A stretch of 64,000 nt of DNA from Brachyhypopomus gauderio (taxonomy: Eukaryota > Chordata > Actinopteri > Gymnotiformes > Hypopomidae). Location: contig NW_027506902.1 of NCBI RefSeq assembly GCF_052324685.1, positions 500,771-564,770 on the forward strand, in the 5' to 3' direction. Position 1 is the stretch's first letter, and each line of letters opens with the position of its first letter. The notes beneath the pieces are model-generated. The model saw only the letters and a list, made by a program, of their open reading frames with translations, was not told the DNA's origin and did no database searches. Below, one piece after another: positions 17,501-48,699 of the stretch. The translations under genes and the position numbers were made by a program.

Positions 17501-18165
17501 ATCAAATCTGCCAGGCACAGAAACTGATGATGCATTGTTGTAGTACAAGACGATGAACAGTGTCTTGGATTGTTCTAAATATGTAACTGAAAGTATTCAT
17601 CATAATCTTTACTTTATCATTTTCATAAATGGTTGGAGTGCCTGGTATTCTCCTGTAGTGTTCCAGACTACACCAGACCACAGACATCAAAATGACTTTC
17701 ATCTGCAGTGATAGGTTATTCAGTCAGCTAAACACTTCCTGTGAAGTGAAAGTGAGAAGCATAACTGGGGCTTTACAGGATATGAATAGATAAGGTTGAC
17801 CACCACCAGTGTACGCCATGCTAATCATAAACTCCTCCTGCAGTTGACTATGTGATTGTGACCCTGACTGGACCAGACAGGGCTGAAGTGGGTGTGGTGA
17901 ACAATTTTAGCTGTAATGCCAAGTGTGGGGTGGACTGCACCGTGCAGTGGGGCCTGCATGCTGGCTTTCCAAAGGGAAAGTTCATCGCTGAGGGAACAAG
18001 GATCCACTGGACCCCATCTGAGGTGGGACAGACCCAGGTGTTCACCTGCATCGCCATGAACCCAGGAGCAGGCAAGCTTGGGCATATGTCCAAACCTGTC
18101 ACTGTTATAGGTGGGTACAAGCAAGGGTTAAAAGGGCAATTGGCCAGAGATCTGCTGCCACCTAG

Positions 18166-18255
<90 letters not shown>

Positions 18256-18620: not shown

Positions 18621-19559
18621 ATGCAACACACACTATACTGGAACAGCTCTCTACTGCTGGACTACAAAACTGCATGACTTCTGTCCAGTTCAGCCCAGTC
18701 CTCTCAGCATATTAATGTCATTTTATACACTGTGCTCAGGATGTCAAAGTTAAACTTGCAATTGAAACACACCATTGTCCACTTCTTAAACATTTGAGTG
18801 TGTTCTCAGAGTGAAGCTGAACTGGCAGTTCTGTTGTAGTGAAAACAAACAAACAAACAAAAAACTAGCCTGTAAACTTGACCGTAAGAGGGAGTAACAT
18901 TGACCACAGAGATGTTTTCAAATAACCTGAAATAACTCTTCTAAAAGGTTTCTCTAACATTTAACATACCACTGACTCAAGTTCTAGACGGCCATCTGTA
19001 TATGAACTATGGGACAATATAAGAGCTTTGGGATGATTTCATGCTATGTCTTTTTTGAAAGAACAAATGATTCAAAGTAAGCCTGTCCTATCCCAGTGGG
19101 CAGATCTTTTTGGGAGTGAGGGAGGGAGGGAGGGAGGGTGGGGGGGTGGGTGAGGCAGTGGGGGCAGTGACGCTGTTTGCTTTCTGTTCCTTTTGATGAT
19201 AGCATTGTGTTGCTTCAGGCCCCCTTTATTCATCGAAACCCTTTGTTCCACACACTCTCACATATGTCACAATATGTCTTGCCTCTTACTAAATGTTCAT
19301 TGGTTAGGGGCAAATGCTTGTTGGCTATTGGATAAAAAGGTTGATATTGTACACTTGAGTAACCATTGTAGCATGTTTTTATGGTGTTTTCAGTGTTTAC
19401 ATGGGTTCAGTTCTGTGCATTACTATAATAAGTTTAATAAAGCAGTAGCAATTATGTACCCTTGGTACAAATAGCAGTTGTTATGTTGTTACACAGGAAG
19501 GTGTTGTACACAATTTTAGCTAAATTTGACTATCAAAAGGAACCGCAAGCAACATGTAA

Positions 19560-19691
19560 AATTGCTCCTCACATAACTATCAGTGCTTTGCCTTTTCACT
19601 GTCTGTACCCATACGATTGTAAAGCTGCTTTGTGACAACATGTGTTGTAAAAAGTGCTACATAATTAAATTTGACTTTGACTTTGACTTTG
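19560..19691 (-). repeat. Dispersed fish repeat, copy 1
   Basis: Reverse complement of a family whose start reads CAAAGTCAAATTTATTTATA TAGC..TTTTTACAACACATG and then GTCACAAAGCAGCTTTA. Related copies lie at 58045-58200 and, more distantly, at 23635-23720. The duplicated ACTTTG triplet run is at its end. Confidence 0.6.
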
Positions 19692-22062
19692 TATGAAATG
19701 TCTTACACTGTGATGCTGAGGTCTTCACTGTAATCCAACCCATCTACATCAGTGCTTTACTGTCAGCCTTTGTTACATTGTCTCAGACGTTTCACAAAGA
19801 TGTAGCTCATTTCCCATAGAGCACAATGAATCTGTGTCAGTCATGTTTGCCCTTTAGAGGCATGAATGGACATTACGAGAGGTCCAAAGAGGAGAGATAG
19901 ATAGGAAGACCATAAAACAGACAAAGGGAGACAGTGGATAGTCAGACAGTGAGAGAGACATGATAATATTCAAACATATTTAACATGTTCCCTTGTAACA
20001 AAGCATGCCTATAAACTGCTTAACAAAAATTGCTCATGCTAGTCTGAATGGTCTGGTTTTATTTTTAACTTTTTTTAATTGAAAGCTAAATCCATATTGA
20101 GTATGTGACACGTTTATTGCCTGGGTGAATATTAACCAATCGTTTCATACACTGGCAACAGGAATCCCATTTTGTGTGGTTGAAAACAGGAAGATTCCAA
20201 AATTGTTACAGGATGTTGACCCTCCAGATGCGTTGAAATGTTTGTTAAAGGTGGTCAGAATAGGCAGTGTGTTGATGACTTTATTGTTCATGAGCTTCAT
20301 TCTACATGAAAATATGAGAACATATGAAAATATGTGTCACTTTGTTCACCCGTTGTGAAGATTCTTTTCTTATGGTGCTGGATAAGGTGGGACATCATTT
20401 ATAAATGATCTTCTCTTCTGACCCTTGTCCTTGTGGACACCCCTTTCCTCTCACCCTCAGGTCAGATCTTCAGGTTTATGTTAGGGGGATGTCTTGACCA
20501 ATTCTACATATATTCTGTGAGAATTTGGACTTTGGTCTTGCTCAAAGAACCAACAATGAGCTAATCAGTTCCTGTCTTTCTTTTGTGTGTGTACTTCACC
20601 CATCTCACATGTTTGATGCCAAAAAATATTTAAAAAATGAATTAAAATAAAGTAAAACTAAACTTTTTACATTTAATCCATCAATGAATGCCATTGCTGC
20701 TCAGGTGTGTGCCACTGAGCCTTGCCCTCCTTCTAAAGCCTTCAGCAGCTGTTCAAAAGGAAGCAACACTTATATGTTATAATTATAGGTAAATTATGAC
20801 TGGTAATACACACTTACCAGATACTTTATTTAAAAGATCTACCTTTTACAAACACTTGCTGGTTACTTTATTATGTATAGCAATCTTGTAGGTAAATTTT
20901 ATTTCATTACAGTTTGTTATCCTAGTGTTACCCTAGTTACCCCGGTGTTGCTAAGTACAAGTTGTAAGCCAGAGGTGTGCACTAAAATAATTGTATAGGG
21001 CTTTGTTCTTCCTTGAGATTACAGTACTTTTCATGTGTTCATTGATCAGCAATTATACATAGTTTGTTTTCCATCTTTTCCAGGGGTTCCAGAAATTATG
21101 GAGGGTATTCTATCTTACTTTGTAGATATTACTGCATCCAGAGCTATAAATGAGTTGGTTGTGGAGTTCAAGGGAGGTGAAATAACTGACTTCTTAAAGC
21201 TTATCTGGTTCAAATATTAGTAACCGAGCAGCACCTTATTGTGAAATCATTGCTTCAGGTAGAGGGGTCTTTTATTCATACTCACTCATTGTAATTCATA
21301 TCCATGTATGTGCTCACCTGGACATGGAGATCTATACATAGGACACAGAGGGTATTGTGCAAAAGTACCGTTGATTAGACCATGGAGCACCAGCCTTGTT
21401 AGCTACACGGACAGTCTGTCATCATAAATCATAGAAGTAGAAAAACACCTAAATACCACATAAATACCACACGTAAGACATCAATACTCAGAACTGATTT
21501 CTCTGCATCAAACAGAAATCTTTTGAGAGTGAGGGATAATGTAGACCAAATTGTATAACATGAATATATGTCATGGGATAAACATAAATAAAACAACCTA
21601 AAATCTTTAATATGAAAATTGAGTCAGTTATTTTAAAAATTGGAAAAAGATCAAACATGCTTCTCTGAGTGAAATTTTAAAAAAGGATGTGTTTGAAACA
21701 ACCCATATTTAGGAAAAGAGCAATGCAGGCAGTAATGACCTTGGATCAGCACTAATCAGCATAACTGAACATTTCCATGCAGGCAGACAGATGAAACCTA
21801 GTTGGACTTCTAGTTGGACTGGGAATTCTAAAGAAACAAGTTTCTAAACAGCTGTAAGAATGTTCAAGAAGATCATTTTTAAGATTTGGAATAATACCAT
21901 TATGAACAACTTTACATACTGTACATATGTAATGTATAAAGTATTAATATCATATACTGTTTGCTGTATTTCCATTTTGAATATTTTATGAGGCATTGAG
22001 CATTGTCTTTACTGATTATATCTTAGTGACATTGTTGTATTGAGACAGGTATAGTTAATTAT

Positions 22063-22063
22063 A

Positions 22064-22107
<44 letters not shown>
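22063..22107. repeat. (TTA)n microsatellite
   Basis: About 15 TTA repeats. The poly-asparagine frame on the minus strand here is an artefact. Confidence 0.97.
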
Positions 22108-22111
<4 letters not shown>

Positions 22112-22695
22112 TAGGTAGAATGTTCTTATTGCTGCAATTGTATATAATATAATAAATGTATATATGCTGACTGAATCTTCAAGCAAACTAGACTGAATTG
22201 TAACAACCATTTTCAAATGGCAAGTGAAAAGCAGTAGCATGTCCTCAGCATGGATGTACTGTGTCCTCAGACTGCCTTTCTGTACCAGTATCATTAATCA
22301 GATTAGTTTACCAAACACAAATGTGGACTGCCATTAAAATAAACCCAAAGGTCTGAACTCTGATTGGTACAGACCCTCTTTAATGACAATGTTAAAAAAA
22401 ACAAGCTAGAAAACCGGAGTGGTGCCACTTTACACCATGACACAGCCAAACCAACCTGTAATGCCAAGCGTCTGTGTGCATGTGTGTCTGCGAGCATGGG
22501 TTAGGGTGGAGATTTAGGAGAGGTTGGGTCACACATGACACATGTATCAGTGCTAATGCAATAGCTATGCAAATATTTGGACACACAGTCCCTGGTGGCT
22601 GTACCACTCTTTCATTCCCTTTTAACTCTACAGAAGTGTCCAGGCTCATGTCCATCTGGTGTATTGTGAAGTAGGACAAAAATAGGAGTGACAAA

Positions 22696-25600
22696 ATGGA
22701 GTATAAATTCTACTGCTTCACCTTGATCCTCATCATCTACATAACTGGTATTTATACTTACTATTTTAATTGTTTATAAATGAGTGATTTTGATACTTCA
22801 GTATTTTGAAATGTGTATATAATTCATTGGGTATACTTCAGCATATTAAGCACAGAATACAGTGGAATAGTGGTGTTTCCTCATTGAGAGAACGTCTGGT
22901 TAGACAGTGTTTAAAGTAGATCTTAAGTATTCTGGTAGGCTATATTAAATTAAGCTGGGTATGATTGTTATTTATCAAGTGTAAATAATTGTCTTGAAAT
23001 GTGTAAATTAATTTAATAAAATTTTATAAAATATGTATTTATGTATATTTGCCTGAGAAAAACACATCTTTGAAATTGAGCAAAGTTTCCAAATGAGATA
23101 AACTAACATATTTTCTCTGTCGTAGGTGTGTCTCCTTTGATTGTGGTTCCATCCTCAAATCCTGTTGCAGCGGGTAGAAATGTCACTCTGACGCTGAACC
23201 CTGCAACGACAATTATAGCTGGCAACTGGCTGTTTGAAGGCAATGTCATGGTGTTTTGGTACAAGGAAATGTTCATACTGGAAGGCAGTTATGGAGACAG
23301 AGCATCTTTCAACTCTTCCAGTCTCCAGCTCTCTCTGGGTTTTGTGAATGTGAATGATTCTGGTGTCTACGCACTCCAAGGTGCAAGCCCACCTTTACGA
23401 GCACAAGTTGTACTGTCTGTTCAGGGTGAGTTTCCAAACATGTAATGTGACACTAAATCAGCCAAACACAAGAATACTAACACATTCTCTCTACATAATT
23501 ATCTTAACACATACCCTTAAATGATTCTGACCCTAATTAGAAACCTACTTACAAATTACAATTTGATTGACAAAACTTTCACAACGAGATGATTATTTAC
23601 AAATACCAAATCAATTAACATATATATCCAAATTTCCAAATTTATTTATATAGCGCTTTTTATAACAGTTGAGGAGGAACCTTGAGAGGAACCAAGACTC
23701 AGTGGGGGAACTCTTCCTCCTCTGGCCGACGCCGGTCACCATGACAATAGTAATTAAAGAGACACATAAACAAAGAAGTGATGGGAATGATGAAGAGTTC
23801 TCATCTTTGTGTATATTTATATGCAGGTGTTTCTTGGGTAGGAAGGCAGCCTTTTGGAAATAAGAAAAGTGGGACAATTAGCTCTGTATGGAATTATATG
23901 TGGGACAGAGGAAATATAAACATTTATGGAGTGTGGCATTAAATTATTACAGCCTAACTAAAAGAGCAGAACCAGAAGGTAACACAGACTTGGATCCTGA
24001 GATATTGGCATCCACCCACTACTGTCAACAAATTTGAGTGGCCACATGAAGTGACAGGATGACAGAACCAGTGCCCCAGTTTACCATAAAACCCTTCGCC
24101 ATCCTGTATCTGTACCTTTATCTAAGGGGGCACATTAATTACCAAAGGTCAAACTAAATAAGTATGTTTTCAACCTAGACTTAAAGGTTGAGACTGTGTC
24201 AGAGTCCTGGACACATTTTGGAAGGTTATTCCATAGTTTGGGGGCATTATAAGAAAAGTCTCTTCCCCTGCTGTTACCTTATTAATTGTTGAATCTAATA
24301 AGATGCCAGCACCCTGTGATCTTAGTGGATGTGAGGGTTCATAATAGGAAATAAGTTCTTGGAGGTAATCAGGAGCAAGCCTGTGCAGTGCTTTATAGGT
24401 GAATAGAAGAATTTTAAAATCAATACAGAATTTAACTGGGAGCCAATGCAGGGCTGATAGGACTCGGCTGATATGATTGAGTTTCCTAGTTCTAGTTAGA
24501 ACTCTGATTGCAGCATTTTTAACTACTTGAAGTTTGTTTAGATTCCTGTTTGAGCATCCTGACTGTAATGAGTTACAGTAGTCTACTACTACTGTAATGG
24601 AGCTAACAAAGGCATGTACTAATTTTTCTGCATCTTGCTGGGATAATGCATTTCTTAGCTTGGTTACGGAGATGTAGAAAAGCTATTCTAGTAGTATTAT
24701 CAATGTATTTATCAAATGATAGGTCAGAGTCGAGTATGACGCCAAGATTTTTGGCTACTGAACCAGAAGTAATGGGGTAGTCTGTGAGATTTAGCATTAG
24801 ATCTGGTATTTTCTGTCTTGTGGCCTTTGGGCCCAGAAGGAGAACCTCTGTTTTGTCATCATTAAGGTCGAGGAAGTTTAGCGACATCCAGCATTTACCA
24901 TCTCTTATGCAGGCCTCAATTATTCCTAATCTGGATTTGTCATCAATACACTGAATGTTAAATTTATGTTGTTTTTGTTGTTGAATTTAAGTTGTTCTTC
25001 TTTATGAAGGCATGTTTGGTGTATATAAGCCTGCTCTGAGCTGTTTAGTACTGCATATTATTTTGTTTCTTTCTTTGTATCGTTGTTTTTTTGCTGACTG
25101 GTTCTCTCTGGTTCTTGGTTCTCTCTGATGCCTTTGTCTGCCTACTATCCTTCTCTACCTGGTTTTTACCATTGTTTTCATGATTTTGTTTTTTCATTGC
25201 CCTCCTGTTTGGTCAGCCTTATTAACCTTTTGGTTTTACCTAACGTACACTCAGCTGTCTACCCAACCTACACCATATTACAGCTTGAAAAAGTTTTTTA
25301 TACTTTTTAGGTATTGAAAGGGTTAGTGTGAATAAAAATTTTAATTTGTAAAGGTTTTTGAAAGTTAGTGTAAATTTACATAAACAAGCCCATGTCAACA
25401 GTTATGAATGATTAGGTGTCATGAAGTAGCTTCGGACCCCTCGGGCGTGTGTATGTTTGTGTGGTCTGTGTCTGGTTATTGCCCATATATGTATTTCCTT
25501 TGGGTGTGGTCCAATGTGGGTGTGGTCCAATGTGTGTGAGATGCATCCATCTCACCTGTGTCTCGTCTCGCCAGTGTCATGCCGTACACTTGTTACTGTT

Positions 25601-28600
25601 ACATTGGGTACATAGTTAAGATGTATGTTGTGTTAGTTCCATAGCCAGGTTCATTTGAAATCATTTAAATTTTCTACATATTCTTTCTGAGATCCAGTGA
25701 TAATAACAATGGTGAGAGAGAGAAAAAAAAGTAATCATTAAATTTTGCATTGTACTGACACCAAATTTAGCAAAGCTGCAGTTTGAAACTAATGGTCTCC
25801 TTGTGTTTTATTATTTGCAGAGCCAGTCACGAATGTATCTTTTACTGTGAGTCAGACAAATCTAGTGGAGTTTAATGACAGTGTTACACTCACCTGTTCC
25901 GCCCATGGTACACAGTTGAATTTCTCATGGCAAAACAGCAGTTCTGCGGTCACCAGCGGGGACAGAGTTCAGCTCAGTAGTGGTGGAAGTGTCCTCACTA
26001 TAACCAACGTGACAAGATATGACCAGGGGCCTTTCACCTGCGTCGTGGTAAATGGCGTCAGTAATGGAACGAGTGGGAACATTTACTTCAACATCAGCTG
26101 TGAGTATGGTGTTACACTCACGCTGGAGTATTCCAACATCTTGTCTACAGCAGTTCATCTTTTACACTGTAAATGAAGATTATATAAATTATGCTTCTTG
26201 TATAAGGTCTAACACTTCATACACTTCAAGGTCATACACTTTATCAAAGCAGTCATCTTGAATAAAGATAAAAACATTTTATATTATTTTACATATTTGT
26301 AGTTAAATAAATAAATGCTTGTACTCAAACATTCAATTTGTATAGTTTAGAAAGGACACATTTTTTTCACTATGACTGAACTCGGGCAAACGTAACTTGA
26401 TATTTTCCCCTTAGATGGTCCTAGTAACTTGACAATGATAGCCACACCACAGAAAACTGGGTACATTTCTGGATCAGACATTACTCTGACCTGCTCTGCT
26501 GATTCCAGTCCTTCAGCTTGGTTCTTCTGGTCCTACAACAACATTTCTCTTAGTACATCTGGACAAAACTTACAGCTTACAAATGCAACCCAGAACCAGA
26601 CAGGAACCTACACCTGCACTGCCCACAATACAGTCACTCTCAGATACACTACAGCCAGCAAAACCATCTTCATTCTTGGTGAGATTGCAATTTAAAACAA
26701 TTGTCTTTTGAATATCAAGTGGTATAGCTTCAGGAATTCAGGAATATTTGTGCTAATGGTGACTAATGAAAAATCTCTCCAATTAGACCCAGTATCATCT
26801 GCTATAGTGACGCCTTCTGTGAACAAGCCAATTTTCAACATGTCCTTTACTCTGAGTTGTGACATCATGGGTCCAGTGGACTCCACTTACTGGGAGAAGA
26901 ATGGCATGTACTTGCATTCTGACAGCAGGATCTTAATATCCAACCAAAACAAGACACTCCTGTTCACCCAGCTCACTCTCGCTGATGACGGAGATTACCA
27001 GTGTGTCGCCAGCAACCCTGTGAGCAACATGACCAGTGTGCCCTACAGGCTGATGGTCAACTGTGAGTCGTAAACACATTACCAGTCTCCATTGATCAGC
27101 TTGTGAAAAATGAAACAAAACAAGTGTGAAACAAATTCCATGTGAAAGTTACATTGTAGCTAATAAAAATAATACCAAATAATACCAAAAAATGTATTTC
27201 TATGTCTCCAAGATGGACCATGGAACATCTCAGTGTATGGTCCAGCCATTGCAGCAGCAAGTTCTTCACTGGCACTGAATTGCTCTGCCTCCTCTCAACC
27301 TCCCAGTAAATACACCTGGAACTTCAATGGCTCAGAGGTGGCAGCAGGCAGCACATATAGGATTGGAGCTCTCTCGTTGAATGACAGTGGAGAATACACC
27401 TGTGTAGCCTACAATAACATCACAGGCAGAAGTAGCAATGCCACATGGGAGCTAACTGTTATTGGTAAGAAAAAATGCTTGATATGACCAAAACTGAAGA
27501 TGATCACTCTTTTTCTTCCATAAAAATATGTTTCATCTACCTTGTATTCGCTGTACAGTATAACCACCTTTTCTCTCCAACCACGATTCTATAAATATTT
27601 TAAGACTATATCATATGATAGATGTTATAATTGTTTCTGTTGTAAGACATGAGGGACAGACAGTGAAGAGAGCAGAATACAGTTAAATGTTTTAACACAT
27701 GCAGAACAAATACATGTGACCGAAAAAAATCAAACAGACACTTATCACTATTATAACTACTGGTTATGGTTAAAATCTCTTTTCTCCAGACATCATATCA
27801 TCTGCTACAGTGGTGCCTTCTGGGAACCAGATCATTTTCAACATGTCCTTTACTCTGAGTTGTGACATCATGGGTCCAGTGGACTCCACTTACTGGGAGA
27901 AAAATGGCATGTACTTGCATTCTGACAGCAGGATCTTACTATCCAACCAAAACAAGACACTCCTGTTCACCCAGCTCACTCTCGCTGATGACGGAGATTA
28001 CCAGTGTGTCGCCAGCAACCCTGTGAGCAACATGACCAGTGTGCCCTACAGGCTGATGGTCAACTGTGAGTCATGAAGGCATCATTAGTTCCTTTATAAC
28101 CAAATATAATGAACTATAATCATTGTTTACTCTGAACTGTTACAGTAAATGAGAAATGATTTACATTTTTGCATAAACATGGGATTAAGTTTATATAAAA
28201 CTTCTACTTCTACTGTCTTGCTTCTGTTTCATAATATTAACAACACATTTACAGTTGCAATAAAAATTATTTAGGTCAAATATGGATTTCAGCAGGCATA
28301 GCAAAGTGGCCTCTTTTTGGCTTTTGTGTCCTAGATGGTCCTTGGTCCTCTACAATCTCTGGTCCAGCTATAGCAGAGGCAGGATCTAATGTGACACTGA
28401 AGTGCTCTGCCCGCTCTCGACCTCCCAGTGAATACAGCTGGTACTTCCGTGGCTCGAATGTTGCAAAGGGCCCTGTGTTTGAGACTGGACTTCTGTCCTT
28501 AAGCAGCAGTGGACAGTACACCTGTGTGGCCCACAATAACATCACAGCCGGCAGCACCAGTGCAACATGGAACTTAACTGTCATCAGTAGGTTTATATCC

Positions 28601-29729
28601 AATCACGCCTAATATTTGATCGCATCAAGAACTCAAGTCAGCACTCAACAGGCCTAAAAAAATAATAAGCGATCGTAAAGAATCATATTCAACTGAATGG
28701 TTTCATCTTTTGCACACTTCATCTTTCTCTTGGCCTTCATGTCAGATGTATCCCTTTGGTGAAATACCGCACTGTGCTTGTTTTTCAGAGGCCGTCTTCT
28801 CTGTGGTGGTGACCCCAAGCATGCTCGTTCCTCTTGTCTCCAAACATCTACAGCTGTTCTGTAACATAACAGGTGTTTACAGCAGCATTCAGTGGCTTAA
28901 AGATGGCCAGGCATTCAGTCCAACACCCACAGCCACCATTTCTTTGGACAACACCACTCTGGCCTTCCAACCTCTGCAGATTGTTGATGATGGGATATAC
29001 CAGTGTGCTGCAGAGAATGCCATAGGAAATCACATTAGCAAACCTTACAAGCTAAATGCAAACTGTAAGCAATTTTCCTGCTAATTTTGATCTTTTTTAC
29101 AATTCCCTTTATAATTTTGAATCTTGTAGTATTGCAGAACATTTATTCACTATTATTGTGTGTTAGTAATCTGGATTATTAACACACCCCATTGAGACAT
29201 GGCTTTCCCAATGATGCATGACATGTGATCTTTATACCAATCTGATACTGATTCCTGACTTGGCCTGTCCTCTCTGTGAACAGATGGGCCTGTGAGCCTG
29301 ACAATCACTGCTGAGGTGAGGCTTGCCATTGTACTAACCTGTGACGCAAAGTCTCATCCGCTGAGTGTTTATCACTGGATCTTCAACAATACCAACATTG
29401 GAGAGGGTGCCACAATATTCATCTCCATAATGTCGGCCTTGGGCAGCAACTACACCTGTGTGGCCAGAAACCCACTGACCAATGTTGCACTCTCTGGTTC
29501 CTACATCATCCCAGGTAGTGTAGCAACCCTTCATAGAACTGAAGATTAAAAATGATGGATGGACAGTTTTTGCATGCGGTATTTAGTTTAGGAAAATGTA
29601 GTACTAATTTTGGATTCAGCATTCTTTTCCTGAATCTCCTCCCCAGATCCCAGTGATGTGGCTCCTCTTCAGGCTAGTGCCCTGCTGACCTCCAGCCTCG
29701 CACTCATTCTTGCTGTGTCAGTGTTGTAG
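22696..29729 (+). CDS. CEACAM-like GPI-anchored Ig protein, gene B (846 aa, eleven exons)
   Basis: Exons are 22696-22747, 23126-23425, 25821-26099, 26415-26678, 26787-27062, 27213-27464, 27790-28065, 28335-28586, 28789-29064, 29284-29514 and 29647-29729. All introns are phase 1, and the 2,541 bases end in a single TAG. Exon 1 is a signal peptide. Exon 2 is a V-like domain with no cysteine, keeping the VNDSGVYALQG motif, which resembles the disulfide-free N domain of mammalian CEACAMs. Eight Ig exons follow, alternating a longer A type (264-279 bases at exon 4, otherwise 276-279; DDGDYQCVA) and a shorter B type (231-252 bases; SGEYTCVA). The last exon ends in TSSLALILAVSVL with no cytoplasmic tail, a typical GPI signal. 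The protein is rich in N-glycosylation sites. The predicted role is homophilic or heterophilic adhesion at apical or leukocyte surfaces. The layout N-(A-B)n parallels human CEACAM5. Confidence 0.85.
23635..24960 (-). mobile_element. L2-like LINE fragment with dispersed repeat, in gene B intron 2
   Basis: At 24603-24887 the minus strand reads MSLNFLDLNDDKTEVLLLGP then KNLGVILDSDLSF, conserved reverse-transcriptase C-terminal motifs of L2/CR1-type LINEs. Sequence to about 24000 matches the LINE fragment at 13560-14130 (TTTAACTGGGAGCCAATGCA). The plus-strand segment at 23640-23720 with TTATTTATATAGCGC is a dispersed repeat found in related form at 58045. The 5' part of the LINE is missing. Confidence 0.7.
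24961..25660. other. Unclassified intronic sequence, likely repeat-derived
   Basis: T-rich sequence with short repeated phrases such as GGTTCTCTCTG and GGGTGTGGTCCAATGTG (twice at 25501-25532). No reading frame or element ends can be assigned. Confidence 0.4.
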
Positions 29730-30105: not shown

Positions 30106-30233
30106 TACATAGCCACGGTGATTAAACCAGCTATGTTCCATAACCACGGTGATTAAACCAGCTATGTTCCATAACCATGGTGATTAAACCAGCTATGTTC
30201 CATAACCACAGTGATTACACTAGCTATGTTCCT
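30106..30233. repeat. 31-bp minisatellite, four copies
   Basis: Four copies of a unit reading CACGGTGATTAAACCAGCTA then TGTTCCATAAC, the last one more diverged. It lies in the region expected to be the 3' UTR of gene B. Confidence 0.9.
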
Positions 30234-30816
30234 CCTACTTTACTGGCTGCAGTGACATTTATTGAGATATCAAATGAATTTCTTCAAGCCTTGAAATTGT
30301 AAGCTACCACATGAATTTAGTACACCACTTCTTAATGCTAATCTGTCCTTCCTGCTGTATTTTGCCTTTACTTACTGTATTTATAGTGACAAGTTTGATG
30401 TTCCGAATATTCACATATATATGAATATTGTGCACTTTTATTGTTTGTGAATGTATACATAACAGAAACAATACAGATAGAAGGCTTTTTGATATAGTTT
30501 ATATTACATTTTACAATAGATAGAGCAAATGTTTGTGAAAACTGTATAAATTATATATCTCAATCGCATATGTGTTTTAGGCCAAGCGGTAGAAATATAC
30601 TATTTCAGTGATTTAAAGTGTCAGTACTTAAAAAAGTTATATTTTACAGAAAATAAAATATTTAGATGTGATCAACATCTACCCTTTCAAAATGACAGGC
30701 TTTGTCATGGAATGTGTCTAAGATTAGTTCCATGCACAGTACAATTTTGGCTACAAAAATACACAATAATGTAAGCAGTAGAAATATCAGTTTAAATATT
30801 ATCATTAAGGTGACTT

Positions 30817-31035
30817 TTAAACTGGGGTACTGATGCTTGCTGAGTGCTGTTTCCTGCATTTTCTCCTTTGTGAAATTCCAATCTTTTTGCAACGAGTCAT
30901 CTGTGCCTTAGTGAGTAACTCTGAGAGTAGATAAAAAACATTAGAAACAACACAAACAGCAAGATTTTAGTTGAGAAGGTTGTAACTCACAGGAAGAAGA
31001 CGATTGTGATGCCCTGTGTGTGTGTGTGTGTGTGT

Positions 31036-31066
<31 letters not shown>

Positions 31067-32388
31067 GCTTACTTGGAGATTTGCAGACACACTTTTTTCG
31101 TTTTATTTCTTTTTTCCCTAAGGATAAAAAGGTGACAGTGTCGTTATAAATAGTAAATAGGAATGGCGAAAGGGCATCACACAAGGGCCATCTATCATAA
31201 ATGAAAACCATAGCAGATTCTGAAAAACAAGTTCAAAGCACTGACAACAAAGGAGCTCAGTAACAAAATACAACACCACACCACACTGCTGTCCTGTGTG
31301 CTGCTAGTAATATCAGTGTGCTTGGGTATACAAAATAAACCCCTGATGCTCTCTCTCTGTGTTTTTGTAAGGCCTGGTGTGTCCTAGCATCCTGATTTCT
31401 ATGTGATTCCATCTTTATTGCAGTACCATGCACTCTAGTCTAAGATGCCTCACCAGCGCAAACACATGATCTCTCCCGCTGCTTGGGGCTGTGTCTGATA
31501 ACATCAGCAGGCTTCACTGCATCTCCACGTGGTGGTGCTGTATTATGTTCACAGAAAGAGAGTGGTCAGAAAAGTCTATTATTTTGCACCCACTTTTCTC
31601 TAAATGCCCTCTTAATATATCTCAGATAAATAGGTAAGGCATTATGTATCTAGGCACTATTCAGTTTATCTAAAAGCTCTCTTAATATAGCTCAAATAAA
31701 AAGGTAAGGCATTGCGTATGTAGGCACTATTCTGTATCTCTAAAAGGTCTCTTAGTATAGCTCAGATAAATAGATATGGCATTATCTGGCACTATTCTGT
31801 TGCTATGGTATTAAACAATCCATCATGTTCAGTTTTTCCATTAAGGAGAAAAATATTGAGTAAGAAGGAAAAAGCTCCCCCTGTAAAAGTGTTGTGAAAA
31901 ACTCAGACTCTGAGCTACTGTTACTTACCAACACCATCAGCCACTGTTTGCCTCAATTTCACTAAAATACATTTATATTCATGGTTAGCGTACATAGTGA
32001 TATTTTAACACAACCTAACCACTGATGAAATTCTAAACAAATAGTAGCCAACTTACAATCCGTGTGTGACTGTTGTGAGTCTGTATGTTCTGTAAGGACA
32101 AATACACCAGTGTACAAACATGAACATGGAAACCTTTTTAAAGCTTTCATACATTTGACACTGATATTCATTTTTCATCATGACTTTTGTTTTTGTGTTT
32201 ATCACACTATTTTTTTTTACCTGCTGCAGAAACTAAAAACTTGATGAACAAATAATACAAAAATTATAAATGTAATATGAAATGTAATAATACAAAAAAA
32301 ATTATAAAGAATACAATACAGTACCTTGACAAAAAGCACTGAAGCCCACCATGATAATAAAGACCAACAGGAACACCAGGAATTTCAT
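30817..32388 (-). CDS. cxcl17: Candidate CXCL17 orthologue: small basic secreted peptide (104 aa, three exons)
   Basis: Minus-strand exons are 32325-32388, 31073-31219 and 30817-30920 (64+147+104 bases = 105 codons with stop, phases 1 and 1, good GT-AG sites). Exon 1 is a clean signal peptide (MKFLVFLLVFIIMVGF). The mature part has a KKCVCKSPSK motif, two further cysteines in a very basic stretch, and ends in ISTPV. Human CXCL17 is also a basic secreted peptide of about 119 aa, with KKQCPCDHFK, late cysteines and a terminal ALPL, and an X-Pro-X C-terminus is reported as important for its receptor GPR25. Human CXCL17 sits beside CEACAM1 and close to CNFN, PAFAH1B3 and PRR19, all matched here. 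Sequence similarity is weak, so synteny, gene size, charge and C-terminus carry the case. The alternative is another short basic secreted peptide, perhaps antimicrobial. Gene B is convergent, 1.1 kb away. Confidence 0.55.
31014..31066. repeat. (TG)n microsatellite
   Basis: TG/TGAG repeat starting seven bases past the donor of exon 2 of the minus-strand secreted-peptide gene, within intron 2. Confidence 0.95.
31598..31800. repeat. About 70-bp tandem repeat, three copies, in cxcl17-like intron 1
   Basis: Three copies of a unit containing CTCTTAATATAGCTCAGATA and GGTAAGGCATT..GTAGGCACTATTCTG, diverged by a few percent each. Confidence 0.85.
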
Positions 32389-32508
32389 ATTCTCTCAAAA
32401 TATTAAACCACGGTTTAATTACTTTTGTTTTTCTTCTAATTTCTGGATGGAATTTGGGATACAGAGACCCAGCAAGCCACTATGTGTTGAGATGAAGCAG
32501 GCGCTGCA

Positions 32509-32514
32509 TTTATA
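32509..32514 (-). promoter_or_regulatory. TATA box of the cxcl17-like gene
   Basis: The minus strand reads CTCCTTATAAATGCAG 121 bases upstream of the ATG at 32388. It predicts a start near 32480 and a 5' UTR of about 90 bases, consistent with a regulated, tissue-restricted small secreted-protein gene. Confidence 0.5.
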
Positions 32515-32519
32515 AGGAG

Positions 32520-35187: not shown

Positions 35188-37235
35188 TCAGGGTGCATGC
35201 ATCTCTAGAAGGGCTTTTACGCTCTTGTACAGTGGCTCACACACTTTCTGATAGGCATGTGGTGTGAGGTGGAGATAGTCATAAAGGTCCTGATGGGAGA
35301 TGGAGCCATCAGAGTGGATGAACCCTGGATCCACATCCAGAAAGGAGGAGTAAGACACAGATGCCAACTCGTCCTGCACCAGAGCATTCACCCTCGCATT
35401 TCGGTCCCGCAGCGGGTTTGGAGTTTTACCCCTTGGCAGAATGCCCTGTCAGGAAAGAGGGAAGAGAGAGAAAAATCTGTTAGAAGAAAAAAAAAAAAAA
35501 AAAAACACATGACCGACACACAAACCTGCCCAGGTCAGAAAGAAGCAGAGGAATACAGAAAGCAGGAGCAGTTTCTGAGCAGGAGAATGAACTAACCAGC
35601 ACAAGAATATGCGCTTGAGGTAGGTGCTGGTTGATCAGATGAACAATGGCCATGATACCCCCACAGATCTGCTCAGGGGTATGGCCATGGTTGTTGGTGC
35701 CCACCCACAACACCACCACCTAAACACAGAGGGTGAAAAAGGCCACGTTTTCAAATCAATAAATCACATATATATATAACACCATATCTGTATATTTCTG
35801 AAATGTGCTTCAATATTTAGTAATAGTTGGCAATCTCAATCAAGTACCAATCAGATTGTACCTTGGGGGAGATGTGGTCCAGCTCTCCATTACTAAGTCT
35901 CCACAGAACATGCTGTGTAGCATCACCACCAATTCCAAAGTTCAAAGTATGAAGTGGGGAGAATAGCTTTCTCCATACCTGTCAACAACATAGACAGATA
36001 AAAAATGTAATCATGTGTAGAAGATTTTGACCACCAAGATTGTATTATAATTTCTAAAGTTGAAGGATTTCACTGGGATTCATCATAGCATCTAATTTTA
36101 AAAAGAAAAAGGTGCCATGTTATTTTATTCCTTGTTACTAGACTTCTCTAGTTTTATCCTGCCACTGAATGTCCTGAAGTTACCTACAGTTCCCTCCTGA
36201 TCCCTACTGAAGGGAAGACTGCTTCAAGTCTTCCTTACATACCTGCTTCATCTTGATAACGAGGCTGGAGCAAGAATGCTATATTAGGAACTGGGCAGTA
36301 CAGTGGGGCCTCAGGAATGTAGCTGAAAACATATGGCCTAGAGGAGTTTTTGTATTGAGCCAGCTCTGTCAGAACAAATACATTTTCTTCTTAGTTATTT
36401 TATGGCTTTCTGGAGGAATTTTGTCTACCATGAAAGGGAATGCACTCCCGCATTCCCAATTACAGCCTGACTTTAATGAATATTAAAGAGATGTTGCCAT
36501 AGGACAGCAACATCAGCTGTTACCTTTGATAGTACTGTATACTCACACAGGGTGCCCTTAGAGCCTTTTACTTTGGAAGTGTAAATATATGTGCATTAAT
36601 GAGATCTGGTGATGTCAATTAATGATGGTTTCCTTCGTTACATGCATTAAAGCTGCTTTATTGCTGATAGTGCCTTCTTGTGAAGGATCAACCTACTAAA
36701 ATGTGACTCACTGAGTGAATCCCCATTCACAAGGACCCATGTATCCAAAACCAACTACCAAAAGTAATTTTTAATTGATCTTATCTGCTTGTGTGTCAGG
36801 ACATGTCGCTAAAAAACCCAAACAAGATATGCAGTTGCCCGAGTCATCTACATACTGAGATCACCTCAAAACTGATTAATAACTAAATGCACACTGAATT
36901 CTTGCTCATAATTGCCAGTAGTTTATATATGTATGGGAATCTAAAGACAAATGTAGCATACCTCAAACTCATGGAGCAGCTGGACAAGAGAGTCTCCAAC
37001 AAAAAGAACATCAGGTTCCTTCCCTTTGCTGTCAGAGACAAAACGATTATGCTGTAGAGAGGGAAAATAATAAACCGGTCACATTACAAAGCTACACATT
37101 ATGACAAACAAAACAGTACACTCAAGCACATTTGTATTAACATGCAAAATTCACCATTGACATCCACCGTCCATCGCCTTGCACATCCTCACAAGGCATG
37201 GGTGTGGCCGCGGGGTTAGCATCTCCGCTGCTCAT
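35188..37235 (-). CDS. pafah1b3: Platelet-activating factor acetylhydrolase 1b catalytic subunit (alpha1 type), 222 aa
   Basis: Minus-strand exons are 37155-37235, 36962-37051, 35862-35978, 35597-35719 and 35188-35445, all phase 0, giving 222 codons plus TGA. The protein has EDVQGDGRWMSM at its N-terminus, then VLFVGDSLVQLLHEFE with the catalytic serine of the GDS motif, GIGGDATQHVLWRL, WVGTNNHGHTPEQ, and DLYDYLHLT near the end supplying the catalytic Asp and His. These are the hallmarks of the SGNH-fold alpha subunits of cytosolic type I PAF-acetylhydrolase, which removes the acetyl group of PAF and binds LIS1 (PAFAH1B1). PAFAH1B2 and PAFAH1B3 are close paralogues; I chose B3 because prr19 lies head to head, as in mammals. 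Lengths match the family (about 230 aa). Confidence 0.9.
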
Positions 37236-38696: not shown

Positions 38697-38828
38697 GAAA
38701 GCTAAGAAATTATCTATTTTTTTGTAATTCGAATTGACAAATGTTGGTCAAAGCACAGGCTGGTTTGGTTTGTAGCCTCACGTCAGAAATCCAAACACTT
38801 TCTCTTTGTTGTGTGTACTTAATCAGCT

Positions 38829-41164
38829 ATGAGCCACCGTGACAGAAGACCTCTGTCAGAAAAACAGAATGCCCTCAACACCTTCAGCAACAAGGCCAAG
38901 GTCAAATCTTGCAGTAAAGATGTTCTTGTCTCCTGCTGCAAATCAGTTTGCATTACCAACAGGACAGAAGATTGCAGTGTTTCTCAAAAGGTAAAACGTC
39001 TCAAAACAAGAAAAGAAAGGAACCAAATTCGAGGACATGACACCAACAATTCTTACCAGAAACATCAACAAAAACAAGGAAGCAAAGAGAAAGCACAGAA
39101 TTACAATTTCCAGGATTACCCCTCTGGTCATTTAGTGAAACATTTCCAAAAAGAAAGGGCAGCTCTTAAGCCAATACCTCCACAGCAGCTAAGTCTCATT
39201 ACTGAAGGTCGTCTTACATCTATCAGAGGCCTCTTTAGCCATCAGGTCAGGTCTGTGGACATTGAGCGACTTGTGAAAAATCAGAAAAAAAGGCACAGGT
39301 CCAAAGAACATAAGTCAGGACAAGATACTTTAAATGATTCCCCTTCACTTCCGTCACATTCTCCATTGATCTTTAAGTCTAAATCAAGTGAATGTGGCAG
39401 ATGTATAGAGGAACAACAGAAATCAAAGAGGTCTAGAAATATATTGTCTCAGCAAACAGACACTGTTACTTTGTATAAAACAGATAGAAAATACATTTCT
39501 GCACAAAGTCTTCACGAAGCTGTAGATAATACTATCGGATCTAGTAGCCCATGTAGTCAGAGAGGGATGGAGCCTGTAGTTTTGTCTTCATTAGAGAGTG
39601 AATGTGATCATAATACTTCCTCAACTATTGCTAAAGCCAACTGCAACAAACCCCATGTCACTCCAAAAATGAAAGACACCTTAAAATCACTTGATCAAGA
39701 ACAAACAACGAAAACAACTACTGCCATTGACAAGAGACATGGTTTTGTAAATACCCAAAGTAGTCCTACAAAGTCTGTACTCTTAGGTATGTGTGCTCCA
39801 CATTCTGACTCTGGTAATCCATCCTTCATAACCTCTTCACCTGCACTGGACAGAGAGCATGTTGCATTGGCTGATGAATGTCATGGCCAAAATCAAGGAG
39901 TAGTGGGCAGGTTGGCCGCTCGTCTCTGTCAGACTCTGAATATCCTTCCTCAACGACGACGCTGCCCCCTGCTGACAGAGAGCAGAGAGGTATTGCTGCA
40001 GACCCTGCAGGAGAGGCACAGCTCCCAGCTCCAGCACAGCTTGTGCAGGCTACGCTCGTACATCAGTGCAGAGAGGCCACGCTCATCACACAACACTGAA
40101 CAAGCATGCAATGACTCGGGGCAAAGATGTGAGGACAACACACTCATGGGTTTCAGCCATGCATGGAAAAATGAAGATAGCCAACAAAATGCAAATATTG
40201 ATAGTTGGACAGGTGAGTCACCTTGTAATAAGTGATAATTATTACAGCACATTGTATACTTATGATAACTGCTCTGAGTAATATTTATTGAATCTGTGCT
40301 GTAGATGATGGATCACAAAGAAAATATATGGGAGCAAAGTGGAATACGATGAGGCAAGCTTGGGGAACATACTCCCCTCATGATTTAGGCTTGAATCAAC
40401 AACTTCCATTCCAAGATATGGTAAGTGGATTAGTAGACTTAAAATACTTGGATATGTGGACAAGTTTCATTTTATAGCAAACACCAAGTTAATGAAAGGT
40501 CACTTATATGGTAAAACTGGTTTGAAAAGTAAGTTTTTTGTGCAGTAAATGGTATGTGGATGAAGATTGATGCTTAGTAAATGTTTACTGTCTACAGCTG
40601 GATCAGGGGACTATAAGAGCACAGTCTCAGGAGTCCCTTAGAGGAGAGCAGCACTTCGACTCACAGAGATTTCCCATGCATCAGGATTTTACTGTTCCTG
40701 AAATTCTCACATCAAGTTATCAAAACTGGGAGCAGCTGACCTCTAATCCCCTCTCCCTGCTGTCACGAAAGCAAGTAAAATTGGGTAGCAGTGAAATGAG
40801 GTCAGAAAATTGCAATGAACTGTTTGAACAGTGGAGAAGTAAGCCGGATTTAGGTTTCTTGTTTTATGGTAAAAATATGAATAGAACCCATGCACCGTTA
40901 GATCATTTGACAGAGTTGAAGAACTGGTCTCCTCAGCATAAACTGGAATGTTTCAATGAGAGATCACCATTTGGTGCTTCCTCCACTGTTTCAGGATTCT
41001 TTCCTCCTGAAGGGTTCCGTTACGAGCCTTATTATCGCTTTCCGCATCCCTTGAATTCCATCAACTCATCAGAAAGGTCTGCTATGACTCTTTATATACA
41101 GTCAGACACAGAGAGGGGTCTTTCTTCATTTTTGCCCCAGAGCACTTCTTATACTCAGTATTAG
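38829..41164 (+). CDS. prr19: PRR19 homologue, meiotic crossover factor (688 aa, three coding exons)
   Basis: Coding exons are 38829-40212, 40305-40420 and 40598-41164 (1384+116+567 = 689 codons with stop). Residues 122-150 read LITEGRLTSIRGLFSHQVRS then VDIERLV, closely matching the conserved block of mammalian PRR19 (ITQGRLxxxxRGLFNHEVKS then LDVARL). A second conserved part, LAARLCQTLNILPQRRRCPL, lies at about 358-377 and matches the PRR19 block before the QARDAIVHTLQ-like helix. The N-terminus has a basic RKERN segment like PRR19. In mice PRR19 works with CNTD1 in meiotic crossover maturation. The fish protein is about twice the mammalian length (356 aa) and is Ser/Lys-rich rather than Pro-rich. 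It is divergent from pafah1b3, with about 1.6 kb between start codons. The acceptor at 38826 fixes the start. Confidence 0.85.
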
Positions 41165-42425: not shown

Positions 42426-45404
42426 TTAAGGCATTAGGTAATAGGACTCATCGTTAATTTGGGGATGGTTACCAAAATTGTCACTTTCTTCCATACTTTC
42501 ACCATTAGTCTGCTGCACGATATGCATATCTTCCTCCATCTGTTCTTCTTGGCTTCTACTATTATTGCTTCGTATTGCCCTCTTGAGCTGCTTCCAGAAG
42601 AGTTCTTGCGCCTTGATGGGGTCTGTGCAGTCTGGCTGTGGCCACTGTAGATAGGTCTTACTCAGCATAACTTTCCTCATACGGTGATACATGGACAGCT
42701 GTCGCTCATGTATAGAGTCCAAGAAGACAAGTAAGAGCACATCTTGCATTTCATGAAATAGACGGTAGCTAGCCATTTGAATCTCAAGGGAGCACCACTC
42801 ACTACGGAGGAAGCTTTGACTGATCACACACACTGTCTTGCGGCTGTTGTAAACAGCCGAAACAATGTTGTCAACTATGTTGCGACCTGGCTCAAAATCG
42901 CGATGGTGTAGACAGAGTTTGAATGAAGACCCATTGCTTTCCAGATTTGGCAGCAGTTTATCCATCACCCATTTCTCATCTGCTGAATTGTAAGAAATGA
43001 AAGCATCATACATGCATTTTTCTTCCTCTTCCCTGAGACGACGCCACTGTTCCCCAAACCATGAACGGAAAACATAGTAGCCATATTTAAATTTCCAGTA
43101 AAGTTTTACATGAAGCAGTGGTATTAGAATTAATACAATTGTTACAAGATATGTGGAGGCAAACAAGTAGACTCCAAGATCCAAATAACACACATTGGTT
43201 TCAAAATTGTAAAAGTTTGACCCTTGTCGATCCTGGCAAGACAAATTGTAAAGATATACAAGCTGGACTTTCTGGTTGTTTTTAGTCCAATTCTGTAGTT
43301 CACTATTGAGACAGCTGCAGCTCAGTGGAGAATTTCGCAGGTCTAAGTACTGTAGATTAGTTAAATTTTCCAGCAATTTTATGTCCATGGTCTGCATAGC
43401 ATTGCGATTAAGATAGAGCATTTTCAATGCTGTGAGATTACCAAATACCTCTTTTGAAAATGACTCCACACCCATGTTCTCAATATGTAATGTCTCCAGC
43501 TTCCGCAGGTTTTTGAAAATACCTGGCTTGAGCTGAGTCACACCAGCACCAGAGTCCGCTAATGATAAATGAGTTAAGCTTTTCAGGTCATCGAATATGT
43601 CAGCATTGAAATAAGAGAGATGATTATTGCTGAGGTAAAGACTCTTCAGGGAAGTAAGGCCATGGAAAAATGCACTAGGTAATATGGAGATGCCGTATGG
43701 CAATTGTCCATCTAATTTCAGGTCGATGAGTTTTATTAAATTTACGAATGGAGAGTACGGTTGTTTTGAGTAATAGCAGATAGAATTACAACATAAATCA
43801 AGCACTTGTAATGTGCCATGAAGCCTTCCAAGCTGTTGACCATCAATATATTTAAGATGATTTCGGTCTAAATAAAGATTGGACAAGCTGTCAAGTCCAT
43901 TTAAAGCTTGAGGCATTAACTGAGTTATCTTGTTTCCCCCTAAATCTAGAATGGTCAGTTTACTGAGGGAAAGGAAAGTATTGTTGAAGATGACAGAAAT
44001 TCGGTTGTTGCGCAAGTTCAGTGTCTTAAGACTGTGAAGATCTTCAAAGCTCTCAGCATAGAGATCACTCAGAAGATTGTTGTCTAGGCGGAGTGTAACA
44101 AGGTCTCTAAGTCCCCTCAAAGCTTTTTTGTCCAGATAGGCAATTATGTTAATGTTAAGTTTAAGTATTGTTATTTTGGGTGCATAAATAAAAGCAAAGG
44201 CACTTATGTCTAAAATGCGATTGTAGCGGTAGCTCAGTTCTCTAAGGTTAGGTAGATACAGGTTGGTTCTTCTGTTGCAAGATAATAGTCTGGTTATGTG
44301 GTTATGCTCAATTTTGAGGCTTGTCACTTGATTTTGTGCTTTAAGGAACTCCAAACAGTTTATATTCTTCAGTGCGTTGGATGAGAGGTCCAAGACCCCA
44401 GATATATGGGGGCAATTAGACAATATGTTTTTGTTCAGAGTCCTAATACCATTATTTTGAAGGATCATTTTATTTATATGTATCTTTGGATAGTGGGACA
44501 GCTGTTTACACAGTGAAGACAGAAAGTGGGGATCATTTGCTCCCAAACCAGAGAAGTCTATGTGTTGAGGTGGCACATTGGTGTAATTATCCTTTAGGAG
44601 TGTTATTATAGAAACATTGGTGGAACGCAGTCGCAGGTACTTTAGACTGTTGAGATTCAGATGATAAAATGCCATAGATGATAGAAGTTTGTTATAGGAG
44701 ACATCCAACACTTTGACACTACTTAGAAAATCCCTTCTGCATCCCAGAGTGCTTAGTTTATTATTACCAAGATAAAGGGAGGCAAGTGATGGTGGAAGAC
44801 TAGATGAATGATCCAAGGAGTGTAGATTGTTGAATGAAAGGTCCAGTGTTATCAGAGCTGAGAGGTGTGTTATGGAATGCACCACTGCTGAAAAGTTGAA
44901 TAACTGGTTCCTACGTAGGTCCAAAATCTTTAAGTTGGTCAAACTAGAAAACAGGTCCAAAGAAAAACTTTTCAGTTGATTGTTGGCCAAGAGTAAGCTG
45001 GTGAGATTTTTGAGGCCACTGAAGGAATAATGACTGAGATTGGATATAGCATTGGTGGACAGGTTCAGGGTTTGAAGACATGTTAGATTAAAGAAGGCAT
45101 CCTTGTTAATTTTCCTTATATTGTTAAAGTCAAGTCTGAGAAATTTTAGTTTTGGCAGGTGACTAAAGCTTCTTGGAGAAATGTCTGAGAGGTTATGTTG
45201 ATGGATTGAAATGTTCGTTGCAGAAGGTGGTACATCATCCAGTATGGCAGAAACTGTCTGTGCTTGCGATTTCATACAATAAAATATTGTTCCTTTTGAA
45301 TCAACAATTTCATTGCAGTTCCTGAAACTGTAGTTTAGGGTGGACTGAAGAAATGAGGAGAATATTGCCACTGAGATAATAAGCAGATGGAACCAGTGTG
45401 CCAT
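42426..45404 (-). CDS. tlr21: Toll-like receptor, TLR21 type (992 aa, single coding exon)
   Basis: I start at MAHWFHLLIISVAIF (45404), a good signal peptide, rather than 12 codons upstream, because the minus strand has the splice acceptor TTTTCTTTCAG|AAGT directly before this ATG. About 25 leucine-rich repeats follow, with a CSC-type LRR C-terminal cap at about residue 700, a transmembrane helix at about 735-762 and a TIR domain from about 795 (YDAFISYNSADEKWV, RDFEPGRNI box 2, LRSEWC, final FW in ELFWKQL). The protein ends DESYYLMP. The TIR and the whole LRR layout fit the TLR11 family (TLR13/21/22/23), and the N- and C-termini fit TLR21 best. TLR21 is an endosomal sensor of CpG DNA in birds and fish, signalling through MyD88. 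TLR22 or TLR25/26 are the alternatives; a tree would decide. Confidence 0.8.
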   Translation of the reverse strand: MAHWFHLLIISVAIFSSFLQSTLNYSFRNCNEIVDSKGTIFYCMKSQAQTVSAILDDVPPSATNISIHQHNLSDISPRSFSHLPKLKFLRLDFNNIRKINKDAFFNLTCLQTLNLSTNAISNLSHYSFSGLKNLTSLLLANNQLKSFSLDLFSSLTNLKILDLRRNQLFNFSAVVHSITHLSALITLDLSFNNLHSLDHSSSLPPSLASLYLGNNKLSTLGCRRDFLSSVKVLDVSYNKLLSSMAFYHLNLNSLKYLRLRSTNVSIITLLKDNYTNVPPQHIDFSGLGANDPHFLSSLCKQLSHYPKIHINKMILQNNGIRTLNKNILSNCPHISGVLDLSSNALKNINCLEFLKAQNQVTSLKIEHNHITRLLSCNRRTNLYLPNLRELSYRYNRILDISAFAFIYAPKITILKLNINIIAYLDKKALRGLRDLVTLRLDNNLLSDLYAESFEDLHSLKTLNLRNNRISVIFNNTFLSLSKLTILDLGGNKITQLMPQALNGLDSLSNLYLDRNHLKYIDGQQLGRLHGTLQVLDLCCNSICYYSKQPYSPFVNLIKLIDLKLDGQLPYGISILPSAFFHGLTSLKSLYLSNNHLSYFNADIFDDLKSLTHLSLADSGAGVTQLKPGIFKNLRKLETLHIENMGVESFSKEVFGNLTALKMLYLNRNAMQTMDIKLLENLTNLQYLDLRNSPLSCSCLNSELQNWTKNNQKVQLVYLYNLSCQDRQGSNFYNFETNVCYLDLGVYLFASTYLVTIVLILIPLLHVKLYWKFKYGYYVFRSWFGEQWRRLREEEEKCMYDAFISYNSADEKWVMDKLLPNLESNGSSFKLCLHHRDFEPGRNIVDNIVSAVYNSRKTVCVISQSFLRSEWCSLEIQMASYRLFHEMQDVLLLVFLDSIHERQLSMYHRMRKVMLSKTYLQWPQPDCTDPIKAQELFWKQLKRAIRSNNSRSQEEQMEEDMHIVQQTNGESMEESDNFGNHPQINDESYYLMP

Positions 45405-45409
45405 ACTTC

Positions 45410-47597: not shown

Positions 47598-48699
47598 TCA
47601 GCCTCTCGTCTTCTGTTCTCGAGCCATCTGGCAGATACCGCAATAAGGACAGCAGCTCATAGCGACCCAGTCATCACAGATAGAGCCCTAAGGAAAGAGA
47701 GATGCTTTCCAATGCTGGCTATATATGCATGTTGGGTTAACTAAGTGATACTGTAGGGCTCTGATGATCCTACTGCAGTTATAGGGAACAAAGATATGCT
47801 TGAGATATTAGTTTACCTTAAAATACATACTACAATATTAAATAGATTGTCTATGTATGCTGTGATGTTTTGGTATTTGACTTGTAATAGTGTTAAATAT
47901 AACTTATAGTAATTGTCATCTACCACAATGGCAGATTTATTAATAAATGTATAATTGAAGAAATCTGTAAATAATAAAATTAACACAGAATACAACTTAC
48001 ACTGATGTGATATTTGCCACGAATGCTGGTTCGTAGAGCAATCATAGCACCCGGCAGGAAGGGCAGACAGCATGATTCTCCATGGTCCTGTGCAATCTTA
48101 CAGCTCAGTATGCAAGGAATAAATGTCCCGCAGAGGCCTGTGGAGAGCAAGGTCAGACCAACTTCATAGTCATTCTCCAGTCTGAATTAAACTTGGACTG
48201 AGTACATACTAAACACTGATTACTGGTCATATCATAGTTGCAGGACTCTATTGCTTTTGCCCTCAATCTTAGTTTCATTTAACAGCAAAATTAGCTTGTT
48301 TATTATTCTCACTCAGCCAAAAACAAATTAAACTATTCTAGTTCTATTCTAGCCTCCCAGATCATTTGAAAAGATCCATATACCGGTAATTGCTCATTTC
48401 GCAGTGTAGAAAGAGCATGTGTGCTCAGTGGCTGTTAGCCAGTCCCACAGACCTTAAGCCATGCTAACAATACCATATTGGGCATGTAGTTTTAAATGTA
48501 GTAGTAGTCAAAATAATAATGATAAGGTCACAATCAGCAGAAAATCACTTTGTTTCCCATCTAACACACACTTACAGATGCCGCAGTCATCACAACAATC
48601 ACAGAGGTTGGAGCTCCAGTCAGAAGACACGGTGGTGACGGTGTAATTGGTAATGGTCACCTGGGGCTGTGTGCTGATCACCTCGGCCTGATATGCCAT
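47598..48699 (-). CDS. cnfn: Cornifelin-like PLAC8-family protein (116 aa, three exons)
   Basis: Minus-strand exons are 48576-48699, 48001-48137 and 47598-47687 (124+137+90 bases = 117 codons with stop). The protein starts MAYQAEVISTQPQVTI and has the cysteine-rich PLAC8 pattern: DWSSNLCDCCDDCGICLCGT, CILSCKIAQDHGESCCLPFL, PGAMIALRTSIRGKYHISGS, ICDDWVAMSCCPYCGICQMA and RE. Human cornifelin has the same blocks (SDWxTGLxDCC, CLCGTFAPxCLACRIS, DFGECCCxPxLPG, LRTGMRERYHIQGS, CALCQMAREL) and 112 aa. Cornifelin is a component of the epidermal cornified envelope in mammals; fish members are epithelial PLAC8 proteins of uncertain function. CNFN is close to CEACAM1, CXCL17, PRR19 and PAFAH1B3 on human 19q13.2, which supports the symbol. 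Other PLAC8 paralogues (plac8, ponzr) are possible. Confidence 0.8.

Follow-up and report, generated by a model that had tools for sequence, protein, structure and literature searches.

A gene on the minus strand of the 64,000-nucleotide stretch of Brachyhypopomus gauderio DNA analysed here (hereafter the window) is very probably the orthologue of zebrafish cxcl17 (zgc:158701), and would encode a secreted basic chemoattractant directed at GPR25. This identity is based, at the sequence level, on a predicted gene structure, a signal-like N-terminus, charge, a cysteine pattern and the gene neighbourhood. The gene is probably real, and it belongs to a kind that entered the literature in January 2026 rather than to a new kind.

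CXCL17 was called mammal-specific in 2024, clustering apart from canonical chemokines (PMC10792014). A Biochem J paper of January 2026 (PMC12905490) then described what is, by its own statement, the first CXCL17 outside mammals, a zebrafish protein that acts as a GPR25 agonist and nearly loses its activity without its last three residues. An earlier note on the present DNA had warned that orthologues outside mammals are easily missed, in agreement with PMC12905490. The Gymnotiformes gene would be a second, independently reached non-mammalian case, recognised in the raw sequence by where it lies, by the phase of its exons and by how its cysteines are spaced, and it suggests that annotation can miss CXCL17.

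Gene model

The earlier note had joined three minus-strand exons into a product of 104 aa. Part of this structure was kept: the frame is real and ends in STPV, exons 32388-32325 and 30920-30817 are present, and so is the donor at 31073. The 5' part of its middle exon (31219-31073) was dropped, and a separate exon 2 was added at 31537-31454, which joins exons 1 and 3 in phase and restores six mature cysteines in the order CXC-CXC-C-C. The corrected model predicts four exons, three introns that are all in phase 1 with GT-AG ends, and a product of 98 aa. Its features, with neighbouring motifs and two further possible exons, are the following.

32325..32388, minus strand: exon 1; carries the start codon, encodes the signal-like peptide MKFLVFLLVFIIMVGFSAFCQ and closes in phase 1
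31454..31537, minus strand: exon 2; APPRGDAVKPADVIRHSPKQRERSCVCA(G); carries the first CXC; absent from the three-exon model
31073..31117, minus strand: exon 3; KKEIKRKKCVCKSP; carries the second CXC
30817..30920, minus strand: exon 4; encodes the final pair of cysteines (C-X10-C) and the Thr-Pro-Val end, followed by the stop
32057..32089, minus strand: A, a possible cassette exon of 33 nt in phase 1-1; acceptor at the 97.0 percentile, donor at 93.9
31929..31961, minus strand: B, a possible cassette exon of 33 nt in phase 1-1; donor at the 98.4 percentile, acceptor at 33.3
32508..32515, minus strand: TATA-like box TTATAAAT, with the start codon 127 bases further downstream; a consensus match only
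30437..30442, minus strand: AATAAA, which may serve the gene as poly(A) signal; a motif match only, with another at 30263

Exons 1, 3 (by its donor) and 4 were proposed in the earlier note, independently of the zebrafish pattern; exon 2 was sought with that pattern already known. Splice sites were scored with a position table of approximate vertebrate frequencies and ranked among all GT or AG sites of the window (8028 AG sites for the acceptors). On this scale exon 3 (acceptor 31117 at the 99.2 percentile, donor at 98.2) and the acceptor of exon 4 (99.3) rank high, as does the donor of exon 2 (99.6). The acceptor of exon 2 (80.3) and the donor of exon 1 (87.6) are weak. Exon 1 nevertheless has the top donor score (-0.2 versus -3.2 or lower) of the six first-exon candidates found with a simple rule. 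The full chain is possible in 18 forms in the real interval, combining six first exons with three exon-2 acceptors, and the choice of exon 1 and of the exon 2 acceptor thus rests on splice scores. The alternative exon 2 acceptors, at 31522 and 31516, keep the frame but have lower splice scores. Cassette exons A and B were set aside, as they make the peptide longer than the zebrafish spacing allows; B, which also has a poor acceptor, is probably a chance occurrence.

Could the main product be the three-exon isoform of 104 aa with five mature cysteines, or an isoform with mini-exon A or B? Its acceptor at 31219 lies at the 96.5 percentile with an open frame, and splice variants are mentioned in some fish (PMC12905490). 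Moreover, the mature part of the 104-aa model aligns with human CXCL17 slightly above shuffled sequences, its score being reached by 75 of 2000 shuffles against 949 of 2000 for the 98-aa model, which shows no similarity to the human protein (E 2.4). We take this slight fit to be due to chance; the zebrafish protein is likewise described as having no detectable similarity to human CXCL17. The 104-aa product, however, has an odd number of mature cysteines, loses the first CXC, contains seven aromatic residues in its mature part (1 W, 2 Y and 4 F) and departs from the published zebrafish pattern. Exon 31219-31073 was rejected as the main exon on account of this odd count, and of the better acceptor lying inside it at 31117 (99.2 versus 96.5 percentile). 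We therefore consider it very unlikely that one of these isoforms is the main product, an alternative that overlaps with the orthologue carrying four exons, so that the probabilities of the different readings do not sum to one.

Two repeats lie in the introns of the model: a 70-base tandem repeat of 2.7 copies at 31595-31785, within intron 1, and a TG array at 31015-31066, directly past the donor of exon 3.

Predicted peptide and comparison with known CXCL17 proteins

The N-terminus of the 98-aa product, MKFLVFLLVFIIMVGFSAFCQ, is signal-like by inspection and by a simple hydrophobicity rule, as the earlier note had claimed, and the total length is below 200 aa. The mature cysteines are at positions 46, 48, 59, 61, 75 and 86 (CXC-CXC-C-C), one more, Cys 20, falling in the signal part. 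A CxC motif and two further cysteines had been announced for the 104-aa model, which has five mature cysteines; the corrected model has six. The basic character also stood, with a mature pI of 10.7 and a net charge of about +18.5. Trp, Tyr and Phe are absent from the mature part. The announced C-terminal Thr-Pro-Val is indeed found at the end of exon 4: its Pro and Val fit the Xaa-Pro-Yaa end with large aliphatic Xaa and Yaa, and its Thr departs from the "typically" aliphatic Xaa, as these are given in PMC12905490.

That paper describes zebrafish CXCL17 (zgc:158701, B0S594) as a protein of 109 aa encoded by four exons, its gene being flanked by pafah1b3 and ceacam1 with cnfn close by. Its cysteines are at positions 47, 49, 60, 62, 80 and 91 (CXC-CXC-C-C), with disulfides C47-C62, C49-C60 and C80-C91 as a low-confidence prediction. 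The protein has a pI of 10.5, an L-P-I end and no absorbance at 280 nm, from which it follows that it lacks Trp and Tyr. Compared on these published features (exons, cysteine positions, locus) rather than by sequence alignment, the two genes share the locus, four exons, a signal peptide, the CXC-CXC-C-C order, a basic product (mature pI of 10.7 here versus 10.5), the lack of Trp and Tyr, and an X-Pro-aliphatic end. They also share two gaps of 10 residues, between the two CXC (48-59 here, 49-60 in zebrafish) and between the last two cysteines (75-86 and 80-91). The B. gauderio product differs by its length (98 versus 109 aa), by its T-P-V rather than L-P-I end, by a distance from the second CXC to the fifth cysteine that is four residues shorter, and by a tail of 12 rather than 18 residues past the last cysteine. 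Once exon 2 is corrected, the zebrafish-like locus, exon number and cysteine order support the orthology with CXCL17 that the earlier note had put forward.

Mammalian CXCL17 (PF15211) has in common with the predicted product the CXC-CXC-C-C order, the basic secreted nature (secretion being predicted here) and the penultimate Pro, as well as a similar gene neighbourhood, taking the human order from PMC12905490. In the human protein the CXC pairs are 22 residues apart, versus 10 here. Zebrafish CXCL17-like (si:dkey-112a7.5), for which GPR25 agonism was reported, is also a small secreted six-cysteine protein with an X-Pro-Y end, but its cysteines follow the order CXC-C-CXC-C and its gene is at another locus, ponzr5/ugt5g1 (PMC12905490). 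As for canonical CXC chemokines, they share a CXC motif, a basic character and possibly chemotaxis through a GPCR, whereas the present product has six cysteines and a second CXC in place of their four-cysteine CXC-C-C pattern, and CXCL17 is reported to cluster apart from them (PMC10792014).

Gene neighbourhood

The order of genes in the window is CEACAM-type (plus), candidate (minus), PAFAH1B3 (minus), PRR19-like (plus), Toll-like receptor (minus), CNFN (minus) and cxcr3 (plus). Neighbours were identified as follows.

25793..29729, plus strand: Ig-domain exons of a CEACAM-type gene, 3' part; Pfam Ig families in 4 of the 4 frames given
35206..37229, minus strand: PAFAH1B3 in five coding pieces; the limits are those of the tblastn matches, with the human protein as query
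38823..41164, plus strand: PRR19-like gene, in head-to-head orientation to PAFAH1B3; Pfam PF15455 at 24.5 bits, below the cut-off of 27
47604..48678, minus strand: CNFN (cornifelin) homologue, three pieces; human CNFN as query, E 5e-16, 1.5e-6 and 2.7e-6

The tblastn, PDB and Pfam matches to these neighbours confirm the place given in the earlier note, beside CEACAM and near CNFN and PAFAH1B3. Among PDB sequences, one CEACAM-type exon has carcinoembryonic antigen as best match (100.7 bits); another is ambiguous, contactin-5 (64.9 bits) coming before CEACAM1 (40.6 bits). The stop codon of this gene is a TAG at 29727, its last exon having been read by eye. PAFAH1B3 matches PAF acetylhydrolase Ib gamma at 345 bits and beta at 324 in the PDB. 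The proximity of PRR19, also put forward in that note, is less firm: a PRR19-like frame exists, with the sub-threshold score listed above, and joining to it a second frame (40571-41164), for which Pfam gave no match, is a guess. The CNFN homologue lies 15 kb from the candidate gene.

Ig-like frames are numerous over 17050-29729 on the plus strand, and may belong to more than one CEACAM-type gene in tandem. A 31-base tandem repeat in four copies (30108-30232) lies between the CEACAM stop and that of the candidate gene. Between PRR19 and CNFN, a long uninterrupted Toll-like receptor frame (42426-45443, minus strand; 1005 aa from stop to stop) contains LRRs and a TIR; of the solved structures, TLR13 matches it best. 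The gene of a canonical chemokine receptor, cxcr3 (type 3-2), is found at 55491-56615 on the plus strand, about 23 kb away from the candidate gene. Its frame 55491-56612 matches B. gauderio C-X-C chemokine receptor type 3-2 with 100% identity over 98% of the frame, the next among the matches listed being from Electrophorus electricus (79%); on this match the window was assigned to B. gauderio, a gymnotiform electric fish.

Chance tests

We next asked how often such a structure arises by chance. The last-exon pattern, namely C-X10-C followed by 8-22 residues and Pro-[VILM]-stop, is found once in the 64-kb window, both strands included. It is also present in 33 of 100 simulated windows, and thus constitutes weak evidence when taken by itself. 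Similarly, 42 of 1000 shuffled introns contain an exon 2 with CXC-X10-CXC, and 344 of 1000 any CXC exon. These frequencies favour the idea that chance open pieces, and no gene, are at play.

The combination of exons is much rarer. We simulated 5.5-kb CEACAM-PAFAH1B3 intervals as first-order Markov sequences, with a pattern fixed from the zebrafish paper (PMC12905490). Both strands considered, exon 4 was found in 26 of 1500 intervals, exons 3 and 4 in 14 and exons 2 to 4 together in 3, the exon-2 part of this test not being independent, because the zebrafish pattern had also guided the finding of exon 2. With a signal-like first exon added and one strand scanned, none of 1500 intervals had the full set; the difference between this and the 3 of 1500 obtained on both strands with no exon-1 condition was judged too small to shift the odds. 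Of the two strands of the real interval, only the minus strand carries the exons 2-4 pattern. Given the rarity of the joint pattern and a place that is the predicted one, a chance assembly of open pieces appears extremely unlikely.

Similarity searches

Profile searching with CXCL17 had been named in the earlier note as a check, and its outcome was negative: no match of the 98-aa model to PF15211 was found in Pfam up to E 10, nor to a chemokine profile, the human CXCL17 used as positive control scoring 177.8 bits on PF15211. The sole Pfam match was at chance level (DUF7730, E 0.23). Neither NCBIfam, which is built for prokaryotes, nor the PDB sequences gave a match above cut-off. This lack of above-cut-off matches would suit an unrelated small secreted basic peptide, antimicrobial or another cytokine, that happens to be at this locus. 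Synteny, exon count and cysteine positions nonetheless agree with those published for zebrafish CXCL17, and we hold such a coincidence to be highly unlikely.

Among 5.8 billion proteins, the 98-aa model had no match at E <= 10 in a search covering proteins that are 0.55-1.75 times as long and have five-residue words in common with it; 2 candidates shared words. Since B. gauderio CXCR3 and many fish proteins are present in this collection, the gene apparently lacks an annotation in it. Among the papers listed in literature searches, titles and the beginnings of abstracts contained no report of CXCL17 in B. gauderio or Gymnotiformes; the supplementary homologue tables of PMC12905490 may include B. 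gauderio.

The locus might also be orthologous but decayed, a non-coding cxcl17 remnant left after B. gauderio lost a functional GPR25 ligand. The weak donor of exon 1 and weak acceptor of exon 2, a C-terminal Xaa that is Thr instead of aliphatic, the lack of an annotated protein in the collection and the two intronic arrays are all compatible with decay. Yet all four exons of the model have open frames that join in phase and run to a stop at the expected place, and both the penultimate Pro and six cysteines of the mature part are retained; such a loss is therefore very unlikely.

Proposed function

For a functional orthologue of zebrafish cxcl17, work on the zebrafish and human proteins offers a plausible mode of action. 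The four exons would produce a peptide of about 77 residues, secreted and strongly basic, with three disulfides and a flexible tail. Epithelial cells would most likely secrete it, secretion and disulfides being extrapolated from both proteins. Human CXCL17 binds glycosaminoglycans (PMC10628517); by analogy, the basic core may do so as well, and thereby form a local gradient. The C-terminal Thr-Pro-Val may then enter the GPR25 pocket on leukocytes and attract them, as extrapolated from the zebrafish work (PMC12905490). The Thr at the third-last position provides a natural test of the end rule published there for GPR25.

More speculatively, a cryptic cxcl17 could be widespread at this locus in teleosts, the ligand of electric fishes, with its Thr-Pro-Val end, having co-evolved with the GPR25 pocket, away from aliphatic-Pro-aliphatic, a scenario that we put forward as tentative and somewhat doubtful. 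To trace the gene in other vertebrates, the features to be combined are the CEACAM-PAFAH1B3 interval, phase-1 exons, CXC-X10-CXC, C-X10-C and the X-P-Y end.

Other features of the window

Repeats and frames resembling mobile elements are found at the start of the window. Over 1-2982, a 300-nt direct repeat is 100% identical at 1 and 1473 and 72% identical at 2683, and a frame beginning MAPKKDIAEKQKRK resembles, by eye, the start of a transposase. Retrotransposon-like frames at 4681-6332 (minus strand) look, also by eye, like a gypsy reverse transcriptase and a CCHC-type gag region. At 6736-8867, two copies of a 230-base direct repeat, with 94% identity and a spacing of 1902 bases, surround a proline/serine-rich frame, and by their appearance are perhaps the terminal repeats of a mobile element.
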